DNA of 64,000 nucleotides from Crossaster papposus (Eukaryota; Echinodermata; Asteroidea; Velatida; Solasteridae), in assembly GCA_037893245.1 (NCBI GenBank), contig JBAIAA010000807.1, positions 372,001 through 436,000 of the forward strand. The letters run 5' to 3'. Of the stretch, positions 38,484-50,389 are shown in pieces; the stretch's first letter is position 1; every line of letters starts with the position of its first letter. A model generated the notes under the pieces. The model was not told the origin of the DNA. It saw only the letters and a program-made list of their open reading frames with translations, and did not search any database. The position numbers and the translations under genes were made by a program.

Positions 38484-38815
38484 CGGTCCCAGTCAACTCG
38501 GCCCAAAATCAGCTTAGCCCAAAGTTGAGACAACTCGACCGTCCAGACAACCCGAAGTCTTGATGTACATGCAGCGCGTGTACACAGACTTCGGGTTGTC
38601 TGGACGGTCAAGACAACTCGACCGTCCAGACAACTCGAAGTCTATATGTACATGCAGCGCGTGTAGAGCGTTCGGTGCGCCGTTCACTCGGTCCCACTCT
38701 GTCCCAACTAAATTTTGGTCGGAAAAGTTAAGTATTGACGGTCGAGCTGTCTCGGCTTTGGGCCGAGTTAACTTATTAAAGGTCGATTTGACTTTGGGCC
38801 GAATTGACCTGAACC
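38484..38815. mobile_element. Foldback element with nested hairpins (~330 bp)
   Basis: The outer inverted repeats read GGTCCCAGTCAACTCGGCCC and, at the far end, the complement of a related GGTTCAGGTCAATTCGGCCC. Inside, CGACCGTCCAGACAACCCGA and its complement form a hairpin at 38538-38609, and ATGTACATGCAGCGCGTGTA occurs twice. It is non-coding; the frames inside are shadows. Confidence 0.75.
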
Positions 38816-39290
38816 AGGCAGGATTGCACATGGTTTGCTAAGGTCGTAGTCCTACCATTGTGAAAATACAGGGGGTCAAACAAAACAAAAATGGCCAAGG
38901 ATTGCAAAAATTGCAACAAAAATAATATGTTAGTGGCATATTTAATTATATCCATCCAATATTTTCTGCTTATAGTTGGGTTTTAATATTAAAAAGTGAT
39001 TTGTGTTCCTAGCGGCATCGTCAAATTCTGTCAAGTGTCATCCGGGAACTTTACACCGATTCTTGGTCAAGTTCCCAGACCCAATTTACGCTGATACGCG
39101 TTGTATAAGGTAACTGACTAAAATGTGTTGATCACTTTTTGAAATCAAAGTTTATTACGTCTATTGTAACATTTTTTATCGGGCAAGAAGCGAGCCCAAT
39201 AGTCTGTATGAATAGGAAGAGGGTTTTGTAACTTAATTTTCTTACTTACTGAGTTACTTTTGTTACTCATCTGCTCATAATGGTTTGGAA

Positions 39291-39585
39291 TAGTCGGCAG
39301 GCCAACCCCGGGAAATATGCTTAAACAAACTTTTGATGGCATTTTTTGTTCAAAGCTGGCAACCATGCTAGAAAGTTTCACTATGGTCCAGGCTTTCATA
39401 ATCACTCGGTTGCCAAAATGGCATTTGACCTTGAAGGTCAAATTTGAGGGTCAAAAGGTCAAACGAGGTCATATTTTCATTTTTGTTGATTTGGTCTTGT
39501 ACTTTCATATAACATCCAGTTTGGCACAAACAATTGAATATTTAATAAGTTATAAGGGTTTTAACTTCTAAAATAATAGGTAAAT
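39291..39585 (+). repeat. Left terminal inverted repeat of the 9.45-kb element
   Basis: It matches the reverse complement of 48455-48743 over nearly its whole length, apart from a short indel-rich patch near 39310-39330. It contains clustered AGGTCA-type hexamers (TGACCTTGAAGGTCA, GGGTCAAAAGGTCA, GAGGTCA at about 39427-39471), which could be subterminal protein-binding sites. Confidence 0.9.
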
Positions 39586-40145
39586 GTAAAGAAATTTCGA
39601 CAATAAATGCCAAATTATCCCTAATGTGTTGCGTTTTGTGATGTACTCAGATAACACTTCTTTAATGATGCTTTTTCCCCTTTATTTTTTAGATCACATA
39701 CAGGAATAATTATGGGCTTCCATTCCCGAGGCCCTTAATATTATTGACCTAATTAGCACAATTATCTATAGGTCAAGAGGTCAAGGTAAATTTAAAAAAC
39801 ATCAAAACTAAAGTATTTTGCCATATTAAACTAATCACCCTTTCTTTCTGCTTCACTTTCCAGGCATGCATGTTTATGAGCACAAGCCTATTATATATAA
39901 CTTACCATTCTTAGTCAAAAGCCCAACCAACATTTAAGGTGAGTTTGTATGTCACACATTCCTGTCCACATGTTTAATTTCCAGCTGCCTGTACACGTGA
40001 TTCTAGCATGGTATGGGAACTCCCTTCTCCTGCCTTCTTCCCACATATCCTAAACCTTATAGCACTTACTGTGTTTCTCTCTGCTTTGCTTTGCTTTTCC
40101 ATCTTGTGGTGTCACGGTTGTGGTTTTTCCTTTCAGGTTTCAAAA

Positions 40146-41379
40146 ATGGAGGGTGGTAGAGTTCTTCCACTTGCCACACTTAAACGGAAGCAAGATACCA
40201 GTGCAACTGGTGATTATTCCAGTTGTCTTCTCTGCCAAGAAGGGGACAGACACAACAACAAGCTAAGTCTGGCTTCTGCTGACGGGAAAAAAAAGATCCA
40301 ACAAGCTGCTGCTGAAAGGACACGGCTGAAGGATCGGGCGTCCTTGCCCACTTTGAACAGAATAATGAGTATACCAAATGATGACTGGACTGGTGTAGTA
40401 ATGAAGTGGCACAAGACGTGCTACATTAACTTTGCATCGGAGAGTCGCTTGTCTCGACTACGGGATCGAAGGAGCAAGGAACACGCAGGCCTTTTAGCTG
40501 AATCTAGTACCACTACAGCAAGGATGGACGAACGAACTGCAAGTTCGTCGTATGAAACTCGCAAGCATAGGCATGCTTCAGTTGAATGGGAACACTGCAT
40601 ATTCTGCCAACGATCAGGAAAAGCTGACCTCCACAGTGTAATGACAATGCAAGTGTCGCAAAAGATCATCGACTTGTCAAAAGAGGACTTTGTCATGTCA
40701 GTTAGAATGGCCAATGTTGTAGACTTAATAGCTGCAGAGGGGAAGTACCACAAGCAATGCTTTGTTGAATTTGAGCGAAGGGTGAAAAAGACAAAAGGAC
40801 GTCATTCTCGGTGTTCAGATCCAGTCCTGAATGTCCTGGGGGACATGTTACTGGAGGGTCTGTCCGTCGGTAATGTGTACGATATGGGAACTGCTTGGAA
40901 GAGATATGAAGAACTATGCAGTGCAAAGAACCAAGCCATCCCTGATAGCTACTTGTCCAGAAGACAGACATTCTATACTGCATTACAGAATGTTATTGGT
41001 GACGAAGGTTCATTCATAAGACCACGTAATCGAAAAGCACCACTTCTTTATCCCAGTGACAAATCTCAGTATGTTATTGCCTGTGCCCTGTCAGATATCT
41101 CGGACCGAAAGGATGACTGTAATAAAGATGACGCACCCACGATACGCGAACAGCTCCCCTCAGTCAATGAACTGCAGGAAATTGTCCACTCTGCCCTTGA
41201 ACTTCGAGCCGACTTGGAACGGATGCCTGGTCACGATACAGCGTGGAGGGGTCTAACAGCAGACGCAGTGGAAGCCATTGTTCCAGATAGCTTATATCTG
41301 TTTCTCTCTGTACTGTTTGGTGGGACTGATGTGTTGGATACTGATAAAGATGAACAGGGGGAGATAGAAAGATCTGCAA
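40146..41379 (+). CDS. Transposon-encoded protein, N-terminal part with two Cys/His motifs
   Basis: The chosen ATG at 40146 follows a likely acceptor (TTTTTCCTTTCAG at 40137); the frame is open further upstream without similarity. Two repeated modules pair CxxC with HxxxC: CLLC (residues ~27-30) with KWHKTCYINF (~86-95), and CIFC (~150-153) with KYHKQCFVEF (~200-209). They are probably zinc-binding and suit DNA recognition near the termini. Next comes NVLGDMLLEGLSVGNVYDMG and a helical region up to EIERSA, where a LINE insertion cuts the frame at 41379. After one copy of the target repeat the frame continues at 44546 with TKQKILNIAQD. I recognise this protein type from other invertebrate genomes only as uncharacterised. 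Confidence 0.75.
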
Positions 41380-44244
41380 GTAGACATAACAGATGGTATT
41401 ATCTGCAATCAAAGTTCCGAGGGTTTCTCATTCGCCCATCTTAATGTAAGAAGCCTCATAAACAAATTTGACCATTTTAAGATTGTAATATCTAAAAATC
41501 CATTCGACATCATCTGTCTAAACGAAACTTTTTGCGACGCCTCAATCTCTGATGACGAAATAACTCTACCAAATTATTCTATTGTCAGAAAAGACAGGAA
41601 CCGACATGGTGGCGGTGTTGCAATTTACATTCGAGATACCCTAATGTTCTCTCGTCGTGAAGATCTCGAAATATATGATGTCGAGTGTATATGGGTTGAA
41701 ATTAAGTGCAAACAAAGACAGCCTGTGCTTATCAGTTCTATTTATAGGCCTCCTTCAAGCTCTGTCAAATTTATGGGAAAACTGAGTGATATCCTTAATA
41801 AGGCCTCGTGTGAATGTAAAGAAATTATTACAACTGGGGACTTTAATTGTGATGTTTCAGAGGAATACGATGGTATGCAATCAAATCCAATTATTTCTTG
41901 CTTTAGTTTGTTCCAAATGGCGCAACTCATACATGACCCAACACGTGTCACTGAATCTACTAAAACTACCATCGATCTCATTTTTAGTTCCCACCCAGAG
42001 CTCATAAAGGACTGTGGTGTTTTACCAGTCCTAATCAGTGATCATTATCTTGTTTATGGGCTACACAGTTGGAAAACACCAAAAATGAAAGGTCGTTTAA
42101 TAAATTTTCGATGTCTAAAAAATATAGACAGTGATGCATTTACGGATGATCTCCGTAATGCACCATGGCAAGATGTTTTTGATTGTTATGATGTGGATAA
42201 TGCATGGTCTATATGGTACTCCATATTTATGAGTATTATTAACCTCCATGCGCCAGTCAAAACCAAACGCATTCGGGGTGCCTCAGTACCGTGGCTCGAT
42301 AGCGAAATTCTTAAACTTATGCGGCAGCGCGATCGTGTACACAAAATTGCAAAGCACACAGGCTTACAAATTCATTGGGATTCATACAAAAACTTGCGGA
42401 ACAATGTTACTAATAAAATCCGCAGTAAAAAGAGTAATTATTACACATCCGCCATAGAAGAAAATAAAAGCATCTCTTCTATGCTGTGGAAAACTCTGAA
42501 GGAGGTACTCCCTAAGAAACAAAAAACTGTACCAAATTCGATTACTTCCCCAAATGGGGAAAATATTGACAATATCGCCGACATTGCTGATACATTAAAT
42601 GAACACTTTTCAACAATCGGCAAGCGTACTGCTGGAAATTACCCTTTGCGTGAACTTGAAATAGATGACAATACTGACGCCTCTATATTTGATTCTGTTG
42701 ATGAAGATTGCGTAGTACCTAACATTACAGAAGAGTTTGTTCGAAAGCAAATATCATCCATGTCGGTTGGGAAAGCAACAGGTCCGGATGGAATTAGTGT
42801 TAAAATGATTAAAATTGCTTCACCTCATATCATTAAATCTTTAACTCATATTGTTAACCTGTCTATAAGATGTGAGCGATACCCTAAAGATTGGAAACAT
42901 GCTTTAGTAACACCAATTCACAAGGGAGGAGATAAATGTAGTACAGGTAACTATCGTCCAATTTCTATACTGCCAATTATCTCTAAGATTTTAGAAAGAT
43001 GGGTGCACTCATCGGTATATAGATATCTTGATGAAAACAATCTGATTCCTAGTTGCCAGTCGGGATTTAGACCCCTGCACTCAACTGAAAGCACCCTACA
43101 TGACTTAACAAACAAGTGTTTTGCGGCCATGGAGAATGGACAAGTTACAGGCAGTGTGTTTATAGACCTCAGTAAAGCATTTGATTGTGTTGATCATGAA
43201 ATCTTACTAAAGAAACTAGAAAGGATGAACATGTCATCCTCTGTAATAAATTGGTTTAAGTCGTACCTAAGTGAACGTAGTCAGTCTGTGAATATTGGCG
43301 GCACCATATCAAAGGTCCTGTCCGTAAACACTGGTGTTCCACAGGGGTCGATACTAGGTCCACTTTTATTCATTGTTTATACTAGTGACCTTCCATTTTG
43401 TATTGCTCCAAACTGCAACTTATTTATGTATGCAGATGACTCCACATTAACGTGTAGCTCCTCCAACATTAATATAATAGAAAGTAGCTTAAATACAGCT
43501 CTTACTAGTTTTCACAACTGGTGCGGAAGGAACAAGCTAGCTTTAAATGCCACCAAAACCAAATGCATGCTTATTGGTACTAGGCAGAAAATATCTAATG
43601 TTAATTTAAATGTATGCATTGCTGGTAGTCGTATTGAAAATGTGAAGTCTTATAAATGTTTGGGTGTAATTATTGATGAAGCATTAAGTTGGGCCCCACA
43701 TGTCGAATACGTAAGAAAAAATGTGGTGTCTAAATTAGGTATACTAAGAAGAATCCGTGATTGTATTCCTCAGCACAGCTTGCACACACTATTTGTAAGT
43801 CTAGTTATGCCAACATTAGAGTATTGTTGTACTGTGTGGGGAGGAAGGTACATATCTCACGATAATATGTTAAACAAATGTCTCAAAAGAGCCGCGCGGA
43901 TAATCCTTAAATGTACCTTCCTCACCCCTTCAGAGGATATGTTTGCTCGTCTTAATTGGGCCCCTTTTTCAAAAAGAGTCAAGTCAAAAAAGGCTATTCT
44001 TGTCTTCAAAAGTATCAACAAAATGACTCCTTTGTACATGACAAATATTTTCAAACCACTTACAGTAATTCGCGAAACAAGGCAATCAACCCACACGGCA
44101 CTGAAAGTTCCTTTCGCCAAAAAAGAATGCTACGCCACAAGTTTCGCTGTGAGTGGTGCAAATATTTGGAATAATCTGCCCGAACAATTGCGAACATTGG
44201 ACTCATTAAGCACATTTAAATCAGAGCTCCGACATGCCATCTGA
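41380..44244 (+). CDS. LINE ORF2: APE-type endonuclease and reverse transcriptase, uninterrupted
   Basis: About 954 codons without a stop or frameshift. Endonuclease motifs: AHLNVRSLINKFDHF, IICLNETFCD, HGGGVAIYIRD, ISSIYRPPSS, TTGDFNCDVS, TIDLIFSSHPEL and LISDHYLVYG. RT motifs: KDWKHALVTPIHKGG, NYRPISILPIISKILER, CQSGFRPLHSTEST, SVFIDLSKAFDCVDH, TGVPQGSILGPLLFIVY and LFMYADDSTL, all with expected catalytic Asp residues. The C-terminus has LEYCCTVWGG and NIWNNLPEQLRTLDS. Family: jockey/CR1 group. The ORF makes the proteins for target-primed retrotransposition. Its integrity suggests a recent insertion. The 5' end contains no clear start codon of its own. Confidence 0.9.
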   Translation, partial: VDITDGIICNQSSEGFSFAHLNVRSLINKFDHFKIVISKNPFDIICLNETFCDASISDDEITLPNYSIVRKDRNRHGGGVAIYIRDTLMFSRREDLEIYDVECIWVEIKCKQRQPVLISSIYRPPSSSVKFMGKLSDILNKASCECKEIITTGDFNCDVSEEYDGMQSNPIISCFSLFQMAQLIHDPTRVTESTKTTIDLIFSSHPELIKDCGVLPVLISDHYLVYGLHSWKTPKMKGRLINFRCLKNIDSDAFTDDLRNAPWQDVFDCYDVDNAWSIWYSIFMSIINLHAPVKTKRIRGASVPWLDSEILKLMRQRDRVHKIAKHTGLQIHWDSYKNLRNNVTNKIRSKKSNYYTSAIEENKSISSMLWKTLKEVLPKKQKTVPNSITSPNGENIDNIADIADTLNEHFSTIGKRTAGNYPLRELEIDDNTDASIFDSVDEDCVVPNITEEFVRKQISSMSVGKATGPDGISVKMIKIASPHIIKSLTHIVNLSIRCERYPKDWKHALVTPIHKGGDKCSTGNYRPISILPIISKILERWVHSSVYRYLDENNLIPSCQSGFRPLHSTESTLHDLTNKCFAAMENGQVTGSVFIDLSKAFDCVDHEILLKKLERMNMSSSVINWFKSYLSERSQSVNIGGTISKVLSVNTGVPQGSILGPLLFIVYTSDLPFCIAPNCNLFMYADDSTLTCSSSNINIIESSLNTALTSFHNWCGRNKLALNATKTKCMLIGTRQKISNVNLNVCIAGSRIENVKSYKCLGVIIDEALSWAPHVEYVRKNVVSKLGILRRIRDCIPQHSLHTLFVSLVMPTLEYCCTVWGGRYISHDNMLNKCLKRAARIILKCTFLTPSEDMFARLNWAPFSKRVKSKKAILVFKSINKMTPLYMTNIFKPLTVIRETRQSTHTALKVPFAKKECYATSFAVSGANIWNNLPEQLRTLDSLSTFKSELRHAI

Positions 44245-44540
44245 GTGTTAGATATTATGCCAATTGCGCTGATCTACGGAGTTAGAACTTGGTTGCCACC
44301 ATAATGTGGAGCCGGATGGGAATTTCCCCTTCTTATTTTTCACCTAAAAGGGTTTTTTATTTGGCGGGTTTTTGCCTATCTCGTAAATCAGAATTAGTAT
44401 TAATGTTTAGAATTCCTGTAATATCCTTGTATTTATAATATGTACTGTTATTTTATTTGATGATGTATGCAGGGCCCCAATGAAAACCAGTTTTAAACTG
44501 TTTGGGCACACCCTGGGTAAAGAAATGGAATAAATAAAAG
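41380..44540 (+). mobile_element. Young LINE inserted in the transposon gene, TSD TGCAA
   Basis: A 3161-bp insertion is bounded by TGCAA at 41375-41379 and 44541-44545 and ends in GGAATAAATAAAA. The ORF is open from the first base to 44244. The 5' end lies just before the endonuclease, so it is likely 5'-truncated or lacks ORF1. Excision of the LINE plus one TGCAA restores the host codon phase exactly. Confidence 0.88.
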
Positions 44541-44545
44541 TGCAA

Positions 44546-47500
44546 CGAAGCAAAAAATACTAAATATCGCTCAGGACATTGTATTTGCGCTTTCAAAGGG
44601 AAAAAAGTTAACCCCAAAGCATGTCGGCCTAGGGATGACCTTACACCAAGCCACAAGGTCAGAGAAACTAGTGGATCTCTTCAATGCTGCTGGTGGTACA
44701 ATAGGTGTCGACACAGTAAGGCGCATGGACACAAGTATCGCGAATGACATTCTTGGGAAATTCGAGGAAAACAACAACACGTACATCCCTGATGGCTTGG
44801 TACCCTATGAACCTGGTAGGCTTATCTTAGGATCAGCTGACAACATAGATGTCAACGAATCGACAATAAGTGGTCAAGGTACATTTCATTGCACACAGTG
44901 GAATGCTTGGCAGCGCGGACCACCTCCTCCTAGAACCCCTGTTAAGCGTGTGCACGGACGAGAGAAGGCTCTGAGAAAGGAGACTGTCGAAAAGTTGCAT
45001 GATGTCGATTCCCCAAAACTAACCATTGGTAAAAGAGTTGAACCCAGGATTCCGAATGCTTCTAGCATTGAACCGAACGACTGGTTCGAAAGTAGTCCAT
45101 GTAGGAAGGCAGCAACACGAATGAATCACGTCTGGGTAATCTCCAGGATGGACACCAGCAACGGCCGTGATGTTCCTCCATGGGCAGCATTCAATGAGTG
45201 TGTGAGTACCGTAGATTCACCACTGACGACGGTGGGAATGGCACCGATTCTCAATGCTACTGCGGATGAATATGGGACCATCACAACGATCATAAACCGG
45301 TTTGTCCTGCTCAGCAGATACCTTGGACAGCGCCATACTATCGTTTTCTTCGATCAGCCCCTCTATGCCAAAGCAAAGGAGATCGTGTGGGCTTCTGAAG
45401 AGTACAATAACGTGGTTGTCCTGCTTGGTGGTCTCCATATCACATTCAACTTCCTTCGGGGCATTGGTCAGCAAATGGAAAGTGCAGGCCTAGATGATGT
45501 ATGGGTGGAGTCTGAAATATTTGGGCAAAATGCTGCCAAGTCAATGATGGATGGGAAACACTACTACAGGGCTATTCAGGGACATATCTGGGCCTATGAA
45601 GCACTCAGTCGGATCAAGTTTGAAGCTTTCTTGGATTGGCTACAGCAGCAAAATCCTGAACTCCATCAGGAACTGGTTGTGCATCGATCAGCTGTATCAG
45701 CATTGTTCAAGAAACATGGTGTGAAAACCCGAGATGAATGTCTGTTAAATGCTGTGACTGTATGCAACAAACTGCTTGATGGTACAAAATATGTAGAGAA
45801 AGCTGACGAATTCCACACCATGCTGAAGCAGAATCCCAACAATGCTTTCTGGTTGCAGTACCTTGAGATGTTGGAAATACTTTTCTCATTCGTCCGCGCT
45901 AACCGAGATGGGGATTGGTTGCTCCATCTTGATTCATTCGCCGCAATGCTACCATGGCTGACCATCTATGACCATGTCAACTATGCAAGATGGGGCCCTG
46001 TTTACCTCGCTGACATGAGAGGACTCGCACAGACCGCACCAGAAGTCCACGAAGAATTCCTGGCAGGGAATTTCGTAGTGAAACGACACGCAGGCAGATT
46101 TAACCAAGTTCCAGTCGATCAAGCCACTGAATGGGTAAACAAGGTCTGCAAGCTGTCAAATGGTATAATTGGCATCACACGGAATGACACGGCAAGAGAC
46201 AGGTTCTGCACGACTTGGTCTGAAAGGTCCCAGATATCAGAAGACACCCTTCATCTATTCGGTCTTCGCAACGACGATTCTGATGAAGCTTTCTCAACTC
46301 GTAAAGATGGTCTTTCGTCCAAAATGACATGGGATTGGGATGCGGTGTCCAAGCTTGAGGCTCAGTTCCGACGATTTAAGGTGTTCACAACATCCGATCT
46401 AAACGTCGCACCCCCCACTGTTACACAGCTAAAATCACTGACTACCAACGACATTGCCACTGAAGAGATAGCTGCAGACCTCCTCACTGCCAACGAAAGA
46501 GGGAAAGATGTCGTATTGAAGAACGTGAAAGAGAGATTAGTGGAGAAGTCTGTGCCTTTCTTCGATCGACAGAAACGCCAGAAATCGAAGACGTTTGCAA
46601 GCCTTTACAAAACACTGGTGCAAGATGGGAAGCAGAAGGTCACCAAGACAATCAAAGCGGACAGGCAACTGATGCAGAGATTGTTCAATGCGTTACAAGC
46701 TGGGCGAGTAGTAGATCTTCACAAGGTACTGAAGCATGAGCTGTCGGTTGTTCCACTTAGTTTGGCAAATACGGATAAAAGGATGAACAGTACCCAAAAG
46801 TCTGCAATGCTTCCCCTGCTAACCACGGGTCTTGGTATAGAGAAAGTCAAAGGGGCACCGGAGACCACAGGAAAAACCTGTATCATAATCGATGGTCATG
46901 CATTGATACAGTCCCTAGGGAAGCCACCAAAGTGCAAGACGTTTGGTGACTATGCCAAAACCTTCGAGAAGACCGTGGTGAAGCAGTTCCGTGGCACAGT
47001 GTCCAGGATTGACGTTGTATTTGATCAGTATAGACCTCTATCGATCAAGTCAACTACACGAAGCAAAAGAGCTGGGCAAACGAGACCAATCCGTAAGGTG
47101 ATCAATCGGGATGATCTTCCACTTCCCCAAGCATGGAAGAACTTCATCGCCTTAGGTGAAAACAAGGAAGACCTTGCACAGTTCCTCAGTGGCAAACTGG
47201 CAACGCACAACGACACAGTCAACGAAGTAGTAGTTGGTGGCAGCAAACCAAACGGATTGTCAACGACAAGGGGAATCATCCCAACACTGAATGCAAACCA
47301 CGAGGAGGCTGACACAAGGATCATCCTCCATGCCCTTGAAGCCATTGATGCAGGGTATGAAAGCATAATTGTGAAGTGCCGTGACACAGATGTCCTGCTG
47401 TTGCTCCTTCACTTCACCAGGGACAAACTCTGCCAGGTTTGGATGATGAGTGGCACGTCCAAGGAGCAAGAGTGTTTTCCAGTTCACGTTATCAACGAGA

Positions 47501-48094
47501 CCCTCCCTTCAGTGGTTGTGGAGAATGTTCTTGGGTTCCATGCCATAACTGGTTGTGATACTGTGTCATCGTTCGCTGGCCATGGCAAAAAAATCATGCT
47601 GGAAGGTCTACTTGCAACACCCGGAACTGTTGCATGGCGTTGGCCGAGATGGGCCATTAAGCGATGTGGAGGAGTTCGTATGTATGCTTTACAAATCGCC
47701 ACACTCTAGTTCAGGTGTTGACAGAGCTAGGCATGACTTCTTCCAGAAAGGGAAGAAGGCACTTGAAATGTTGCCACCAACAAGTGACGCTCTGGAATTG
47801 CATATGTCGCGTGCGAACTACCAGGCAAAAGTATGGCTACAGGCAAACAAGGCTGACGTGGTTGTTCCTGATCCTGAGGAGACTGGAGGTTGGCAGGCAA
47901 CCGACAGACAGTTGGAAGTGGTGTGGTTGCGTAAACCATCTGTTCCAAGTAGCTGTTTGGAACTAGTTACTTGTGGGTGCAAAAGCAAGTGCCGCACACA
48001 GGCTTGCCATTGCCACAAGATGGGACAACCATGTATACCTGCATGTGGCTGTGATGCTGAAGGATGCATGAACACGGCAGGGGATAAAGCTTGA
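44546..48094 (+). CDS. Transposon-encoded protein, C-terminal part with XPG/FEN1-like nuclease and CXC tail (one frameshift)
   Basis: The frame resumes with TKQKILNIAQDIVFALSKGK and KLTPKHVGLGMTLHQATRS. A conserved-looking middle follows (RYLGQRHTIVFFDQPLYAKA, VVLLGGLHITFNFLRGIGQQ), then a C-terminal third resembling FEN1/EXO1/XPG nucleases. Its blocks in order are IIIDGHALIQSL (~46875), IDVVFDQYRPLSIKSTTRSK (~47010), EEADTRIILHA (~47305), VKCRDTDVLLLLLHF (~47370) and ITGCDTVSSFAGHGKK (~47550). These parallel the first Asp, VFDG...R..R, EAEA, DxD and GCDY..GxGxK blocks of that family. The frame then shifts inside an A7 run (47587-47593). The second frame adds SCWKVYLQHPEL and ends in a CXC-like tail (CGCKSKCRTQACHCHKMGQP, then CGCDAEGC). 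The XPG-like call is by eye. Confidence 0.7.
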
Positions 48095-48454
48095 ACAGAA
48101 GTGATTTGGTGATGGGTTAAATCGATGAAAAAAAATGTACAGTTGCTTATATCCGTTAAAACACATCATTGGCGCTGTATACTTACCTGCTTAACCAAGA
48201 CAAAACAACAGGGACAATTCGATTCTTCTTTAGTATAAAAGTAACATTTAACCTTTTAACCTTGAAATTTGACCTTGAATGTCATACATACCTTTGGAAA
48301 CTAGACGATTGTGTGGCTTCTAGCTACTGTGGTGCCTTGTTAATGAAGAAGCAAGGGTAATTTCTGGTAAAAGTGACTTTAAAATCAATGCATCTTACAT
48401 TATGCGAATTCCAAAGTATAAAGCATTAAAAAGCATTTATATTCATAAATCGCT
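48095..48454. other. 3' non-coding part of the 9.45-kb element
   Basis: It lies between the stop at 48094 and the right inverted repeat. It contains TTTGACCTTGAATGTCATA at about 48269, another AGGTCA-like site. No gene. Confidence 0.6.
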
Positions 48455-48743
48455 TAATATTTACCTATTATTTTAGAAGTTAAAACCCTTATAACTTATT
48501 AAATATTCAATTGTTTGTGCCAAACTGGATGTTATATGAAAGTACAAGACCAAATCAACAAAAATGAAAATATGACCTCGTTTGACCTTTTGACCCTCAA
48601 ATTTGACCTTCAAGGTCAAATGCCATTTTGGCAACCGAGTGATTCTGAAAGCCTGGACCATAGTAATACTTTCTAGCATGGTTGCCAGCTTTGAACAAAA
48701 AATGCCATCAACATTTTTTTTTAGGGTCTTGGCCTGCCGACTA
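48455..48743 (-). repeat. Right terminal inverted repeat of the 9.45-kb element
   Basis: Reverse complement of the left repeat at 39291-39585, ending GGCCTGCCGACTA, followed by GAA. Spurious open frames occur on both strands. Confidence 0.9.
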
Positions 48744-50389
48744 GAAAGAATCTTTTCGAAATTGGGAGACATCGAGAAGTTTGACTTTGACATTAGCTGC
48801 AGTGCTGGCCGGGGAACCTTGTGCCAAGTGAAGTGGACACACACACGTGTAACGTACGGTCGTCAGTTCTGCTGTTCTGGATATCGGGATCGCAAAATAT
48901 ATTCAGGCTGCTTTTGGATCGGCTACATATAGGCCCTAAAATCAAGTGAAATGGGTTTATTACTATACTTGTTCCACCTTTACTAAAAGTGATATGGCAA
49001 AAACGTAAATAGACATGACGTAGCAATAGCACGATTGATGAACTTGAAGGAGTAGGCACTAAATTTGTTTTCCTGGCATACAAATACAAAAAACACGCTT
49101 CTAGTAAAAGGTTCTACTTCTTCTATTTTTGAAAATACCGTACATGTCGGCCTATAGGCCACAACGAACTGACATCGCTGTTCATGCTTTTCTTAGTTCC
49201 GGATCGCTTGAAAAACTGCTTTGTACTTGTTGTACATGTACATGTATACACATGTAGGCCCTAATTAGGTTATTATAAAAGAAAATATTTACAGCGAGAA
49301 CCAACCGAATCAAGCAGATTTTCTGATAAAATATTTAAGCTACATCTGTTGAGCCATATAGGCCTAACCGAATGCCTAAAGTTTAAAAGGAAAAGAAATC
49401 GCACAAAAAAATGTTTTCTCCCACTCGACAAGCTTGCTTCTTGGGGCCTGCCTCAACACTTATTCGCAGTGGTTTAATAATCTCATATAATAATAATGTT
49501 GTGTGGAAAATAAAGTGACATGAATGAATGATGACTGAATGAATGAATGTGATATAAAGGGTAAAGCCGTAAAGGCCAATTGTTTTTCCTTAAAACAACA
49601 CTTTTATGTGCTACTTTCTCTAAATATGGTTAGTAGACATAACAAAGATTACAAATATCAATAAATCAAAAAATAGAACAAAAATAGCCTCAATTCACTA
49701 TTTTCCACTGTGCCCTGTGCCTAGCTTAGTCTCATTTTCCCAGAATGCCTCATAAATGTAGGTCATACAAATTCAAGTTAATTTACATAGATGAAAATGA
49801 GTAAATTTGATATTGTCGAACTTCAATCTAATCAAATGTGCTATGGTGGATTACTAAAGGGGAACGAGTGAATTCGTTTTTTAATAACTATAGAGCAGTG
49901 CCGGTCAGAATGTGCCTGTTCGGGACGGGCAAATTGCTTGGCCTCCGGCATTGTCTAGGAGACCCACAATTGTGGTGGCGTGGTATGGAGTGTGGTGCCC
50001 GATCAAAATGTTCAGCAGTGTGTGGCGGTCTTTATAACACCTCACCCAAAGATTCTGTGTTTTGATTGGCCGAGAGCTAGTCACATGGCATTTTCTATTT
50101 TTATGATCTTTTTGTGCACCGCCTAAAAGCACCGATACCACCGGTATACCCGTAGCAAACAAAAGCACCGGTACTATACCATTATCAACCAAAATAGCAT
50201 ACCCATTTGCTTGCAAATGCATGCTGAAGTTCACATTAAGTGTCATGCGTATTGTTCCAAAGAGCCAGCGCTACAGAGCTAGGTTCAATCATTTACATGT
50301 TCTGAAGGGGTGGTTTTGAAAAGAGCAAATGTATGTTCTGTCAATTTTGTATTTAAATCGAAATTCATTTAAATTTTAAAAAAAAAATT
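48744..50389. other. Non-coding intergenic stretch
   Basis: It contains a TGAATGAA microsatellite at about 49520-49548 and a GTGGTGGCG-rich block near 49960-50040 that could be part of an old repeat. No gene is supported. Confidence 0.4.

Follow-up and report, generated by a model that had tools for sequence, protein, structure and literature searches.

A 64,000-nt stretch of Crossaster papposus DNA (contig JBAIAA010000807.1, positions 372001 to 436000; hereafter the window) contains a transposon at positions 39291–48743 (forward strand, as for all features below unless noted; 9453 bp including a nested long interspersed nuclear element, LINE). The question this locus raises is which part of the single protein encoded by the element carries out its transposition. 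The original prediction, made from the sequence alone, described a mobile element built around an XPG/FEN1-like nuclease with no recognised DDE transposase, and proposed an unusual or undescribed mobilization chemistry. Both the mobility of the element and the nuclease were borne out. A DDE domain was predicted, however, and ordinary DDE chemistry is more likely than a novel one. As a whole, the observations are very probably best explained by an AcademX-type transposon that uses DDE chemistry and has a nuclease as its helper. A division of labour within one protein would thus take the place of an undescribed chemistry.

A predicted DDE transposase domain and an XPG/FEN1-like nuclease in one protein

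Conservation, a structural model (m450e2a4fee2d) and structural matches obtained with VIA indicate with high probability that the protein includes a DDE/RNase-H transposase domain with a helical insertion (44554–46260; the end is approximate). In the model, residues ∼1–570 of the second piece of the gene adopt a high-confidence predicted RNase-H fold with the DDE triad. The codons for the first predicted catalytic Asp (44839–44841, in ADNID), the second (45352–45354, in DQPLY), an invariant His (45436–45438, in GGLH) and the predicted catalytic Glu (46129–46131, in DQATEW) were each conserved in 59 of 59 sequences. In the larger alignment described below, D-D-H-E was present in 109 of 110 relatives. 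The exception, P0142, a gene product of the beetle Phaedon cochleariae, was the only one of the 110 proteins lacking the second Asp. The analysis also suggests that the Pfam family DUF6589 is part of an Academ-type DDE transposase domain; no mention of DUF6589 was found in the literature searched, which covered only a minority of subscription papers.

The C-terminal third of the protein appears to be an XPG/FEN1/EXO1-type nuclease, as had been proposed. The domain runs from about 46800 to a frame change near 47590, and the predicted structure of a homologue, P0043, showed a clearly EXO1/FEN1-like (PIN-like/FEN) fold. The nuclease motifs originally listed were present in the order given and strongly conserved. 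Their Asp and Glu codons lie at 46891, 47023, 47302, 47305, 47311, 47383, 47389 and 47557, and the ordered acidic residues DDEEDDDD were found in 53 of 58 relatives in one alignment and in 80 of 110 in the larger one. The resemblance to the EXO1/FEN1/XPG/XRN 5′ nucleases thus lies in the predicted fold and the ordered acidic residues. The domain differs from them in being embedded after ∼1180 transposase residues, in showing only 8–17% identity in the aligned rows, and in giving no match to the Pfam XPG profiles, either for the window pieces (E ≤ 1) or for 30 relatives (E ≤ 0.1). Of the checks suggested for this domain, the structure prediction supported it and the profile search gave no match; the nuclease may be too divergent for curated sequence profiles. 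Pfam searches with the three pieces of the window gene returned only a weak CXC match and matches resembling chance, and NCBIfam gave none in four relatives. Profiles compared with the sequences of solved structures yielded no nuclease or transposase match, and a single-sequence search gave three weak, unrelated rows.

Loss of the nuclease site in a clade that retains the DDE site

At least 148 related proteins were collected, which represent only some members of the family. Those with 1050 or more amino acids (aa), 110 in all, were aligned, and 38 shorter ones were left out. The 30 aligned relatives in which the octad of acidic residues was incomplete fell into three kinds: 14 were shortened or gapped in this region, six (P0036, P0075, P0091, P0121, P0122 and P0143) showed one or two changes, and ten (P0089, P0092, P0094 and P0129–P0135) had lost the nuclease site. 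In these ten, the octad carried four to six changes, of which four or five in each protein were to non-acidic residues.

A FastTree phylogeny (109 rows, P0142 dropped) grouped the ten in one clade with a support of 0.954, the intact P0137 being its sister. IQ-TREE, run on 47 chosen rows, indicated a single change (SH-aLRT 92), where shuffling gave a mean of 9.3, and placed as sister either P0137 or a group formed by P0091, P0139 and P0143. P0091 and the two P. cochleariae proteins P0139 and P0143, all near this clade, also have changed or missing nuclease residues.

All ten proteins retained D-D-H-E, 322–327 aligned residues of the nuclease domain and the cysteine-rich tail, and their open frames spanned 1102–1384 aa. 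At a DDE identity of 0.5–0.6, the mean identity of the nuclease domain was 0.38 for 17 pairs involving this clade, versus 0.51 for 623 pairs with the full octad; the domain has thus diverged beyond expectation. The persistence of such long open frames in a divergent clade without the site argues, at the level of sequence, that nuclease catalysis is dispensable and the DDE site is not. The clade would point to which of the two active sites is essential, although we infer the ends and mobility of these ten relatives from the protein alone.

Proposed mechanism and alternatives

Conservation, the predicted fold and the target-site duplications (TSDs) suggest that the DDE domain would cut and join the element with a 3-bp stagger. 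The EXO1/FEN1-like nuclease may trim or cut the complementary 5′ strand, or a flap, at the ends. Its step would be that of a helper, which some relatives could dispense with or entrust to nucleases of the host. Because the DDE triad persists in ten relatives that no longer have the nuclease site, the element probably relies on ordinary DDE chemistry assisted by an accessory nuclease, in agreement with reports on Academ (PMC10045372, PMC9587614, PMC10294476).

Several observations weigh against this account. Foldseek alone gave no significant match for the DDE model, and the evidence for the DDE fold is weaker than that for the nuclease. The octad is complete in most of the long relatives, and nearly half of the remainder are merely shortened or gapped.

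The prevalence of the complete octad would fit a scheme, possible but clearly less probable, in which most lineages need both sites. The DDE domain would make and join the 3′ ends and the nuclease would have to cut the other strand, as TnsB and TnsA, respectively, do in Tn7; the clade without the nuclease site would move by a changed route, replicative or host-assisted. The greater divergence of the nuclease domain in that clade is consistent with this. TnsB and TnsA are indeed enzymes of two types (PMC3627910), and Kojima remarks that AcademX and AcademH differ in TSD length and that this ‘seems related’ to the different enzymes, helicase and nuclease, encoded by the two (PMC10045372). Nevertheless, a whole clade lives without the nuclease site, and a role in end trimming or flap removal would explain the data equally well. 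By analogy, and with rather low probability, AcademX might be a one-polypeptide counterpart of Tn7 TnsB–TnsA, with the DDE domain acting on the 3′ strands and the FEN-like domain on the 5′ strands, loss of the nuclease site turning cut-and-paste into copy-and-paste transposition. Were this true, the clade lacking the site would document in nature how one mode of transposition gave way to another.

It is very improbable that the XPG/FEN1-like nuclease is itself the transposase, acting by flap or hairpin processing and without DDE chemistry. The widespread octad and the clearer fold of the nuclease would speak for it, but the same protein carries an RNase-H-like DDE domain whose D-D-H-E residues are nearly invariant, and they persist, in long frames, in the ten relatives devoid of the nuclease site.

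Relationship to known transposons

The element makes 3-bp TSDs and encodes a nuclease besides a DDD/E domain, and we are fairly sure that it is of the AcademX type by the features tested, which were taken from published descriptions. AcademX elements have TSDs of 3–4 bp and AcademH elements TSDs of 9–10 bp (PMC10045372); the 3-bp TSDs seen here do not fit AcademH. Academ is listed among the superfamilies with a DDD/E transposase (PMC9587614; PMC10294476), and the consensus sequences of bivalve Academ elements have a mean length of 5565 bp (PMC10294476), compared with ∼6.3 kb here without the LINE. Among the described features, no difference from AcademX was found. None of the Pfam matches, whether of the three pieces of the window gene or of the 30 relatives, was to a helicase family; this is weak evidence of absence, since Pfam also missed the nuclease. 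We take the AcademX nuclease to be of the XPG type, and an XPG nuclease was reportedly part of Kapitonov and Jurka's 2010 description of Academ. In the literature searched, no paper was found that brings Academ and XPG together, and the AcademX nuclease was not described beyond one sentence in PMC10045372, which says that AcademX encodes it; no search was directed at the loss of its active site.

A predicted RNase-H core, a long helical insertion between the second Asp and the Glu, and an invariant His after the second Asp are features shared with the P element, hAT (Hermes) and RAG1–Transib; the 3-bp TSD, the fused XPG-like nuclease and the CXC-like tail set the present element apart. Membership of the P or hAT superfamilies, whose TSDs are 8 bp long, was rejected on TSD length. 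Some Kolobok lineages also consist of DDE transposons with an added nuclease (lambda-exonuclease-like, DEDDh or His-Me finger; PMC9587614), although both the nuclease family and the superfamily are different. The element is thus, with high likelihood, an Academ-kind cut-and-paste transposon in which one protein combines a DDE domain with a repair-like nuclease.

Boundaries of the element and insertion site

The terminal inverted repeats (TIRs) lie at 39291–39597 and, on the reverse strand, at 48447–48743. They consist of a computed pair of 278 nt (39320–39597 and 48447–48724) that is 96% complementary, lengthened by the tips TAGTCGGCAGGCC... (from 39291) and ...GGCCTGCCGACTA (to 48743), read by sequence. 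A GAA TSD is present on each side (39288–39290 and 48744–48746). The inverted repeats of ∼290 bp with a flanking GAA that had been noted were therefore confirmed. When the flanks were joined with a single GAA, the resulting 200-base sequence was found, with 200/200 identity, at another place in this 1.02-Gb genome. The left and right flanks share exactly three bases at this empty site, which confirms both the boundaries and the 3-bp TSD of the window copy. These flanks had at least 40 matches in the genome, indicating that the window copy was inserted inside another repeat. The terminal repeat also had at least 40 matches, a lower bound in which both ends and derivatives are counted. The size of the element without the LINE, about 6.3 kb by arithmetic, agrees with that of a LINE-free copy in L009.

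Within the terminal repeat, segment 39426–39471 contains four AGGTCA/TGACCT hexamers, the first two forming TGACCT-nnn-AGGTCA; they are possible candidates for protein-binding sites. Just left of the element, at 38506–38774, there are two imperfect inverted repeat pairs of 42–43 nt (77–79%).

Other copies in the genome

The search for other copies that had been suggested revealed elements with the same ends. Both ends could be read in nine distinct insertions, and exact 3-bp TSDs were present in eight of them: GAA (window), ACA (L014), TAA (L015), TCA (L016), CCT (L017), TTA (L032), CTA (L033) and TAC (L034), the last three identified in the flanks by eye. The ninth, L022, had no clean TSD. 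L018 repeats the insertion of L014, and the two were counted once. Loci with at most one readable end (L009, L019, L020/L021, L028, L010–L013 and L023–L027) were not included in this count, and L001–L008 are short pieces of copies re-examined at greater length. At the protein level the genome yielded 29 matches, and in several of these the frame is open. The chance that the gene is a single-copy host gene lying by accident between inverted repeats is negligible: a long intron-free frame is all that favours it, and it is refuted by the copies with the same ends, the exact empty site, the TSDs, and the number and open frames of the protein matches.

L032–L034 form a second family, with 39% protein identity to P0001. 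These 6.3-kb copies are 99.6% alike, have open frames of 1546 codons, and carry TIRs alignable over about 304 bp with tips TAGACT.../...AGTCTA; this family has moved recently. All DDE and nuclease motifs were present in L032, and all except the last nuclease motif, which a stricter form of the search did not find, in L033 and L034. Around a further relative (L031, C102) no TIRs were recognised, and it is uninformative as to ends.

L014–L018 and L022 are near-complete palindromes of 3.4–4.4 kb, made of two inverted copies of approximately the 3′ third of the element. Their arms are 89–96% alike in pieces and they have the same tips (one is changed in L022); evidently, these derivatives moved in trans. 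The insertion shared by L014 and L018 has the same flanks on contigs C836 and C344, in opposite orientation, and represents either a duplicated locus or unmerged alleles. At nine loci (L010–L013 and L023–L027), which lie inside a larger repeat, a truncated palindromic derivative is preceded by an identical left flank; compared with L010, which has no frame over 150 aa, the aligned pieces of the other eight were 99.1–99.9% identical over up to nearly 9 kb.

The gene of the window copy and the nested LINE

The gene is in three pieces. The first (40146–41381) encodes the N-terminal part, including two CxxC...HxxC modules, and is broken by the LINE (41382–44537), which is foreign to the transposon and bordered by AAGT at 41378–41381 and 44538–44541. 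The second (44538–47590) encodes the DDE domain followed by the XPG-like nuclease, up to the frame change, whose position is approximate. The third, in another frame (47590–48094, start approximate), encodes the remainder of the nuclease domain and the C-terminal tail. The frame change was absent from the original prediction; its estimate of ∼1,590 codons once the LINE is removed held up, since a relative with 91% identity across the piece used in the search has 1602 aa in one open frame. The window copy is very probably what is left of an AcademX-type DNA transposon, now decayed, in an animal genome.

The zinc-motif head proposed earlier was supported by the two CxxC...HxxC modules, which are kept in at least 90% of 30 aligned relatives and probably bind the ends of the element. 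The CXC tail was supported in part: the cysteine-rich segment at 47969–48076 gave weak matches to Pfam TCR (E 0.01, which falls short of the curated cut-off) and to LIN54 (E 0.05). This CXC-like tail probably binds DNA. The LINE has a further match, 99% identical, in L028.
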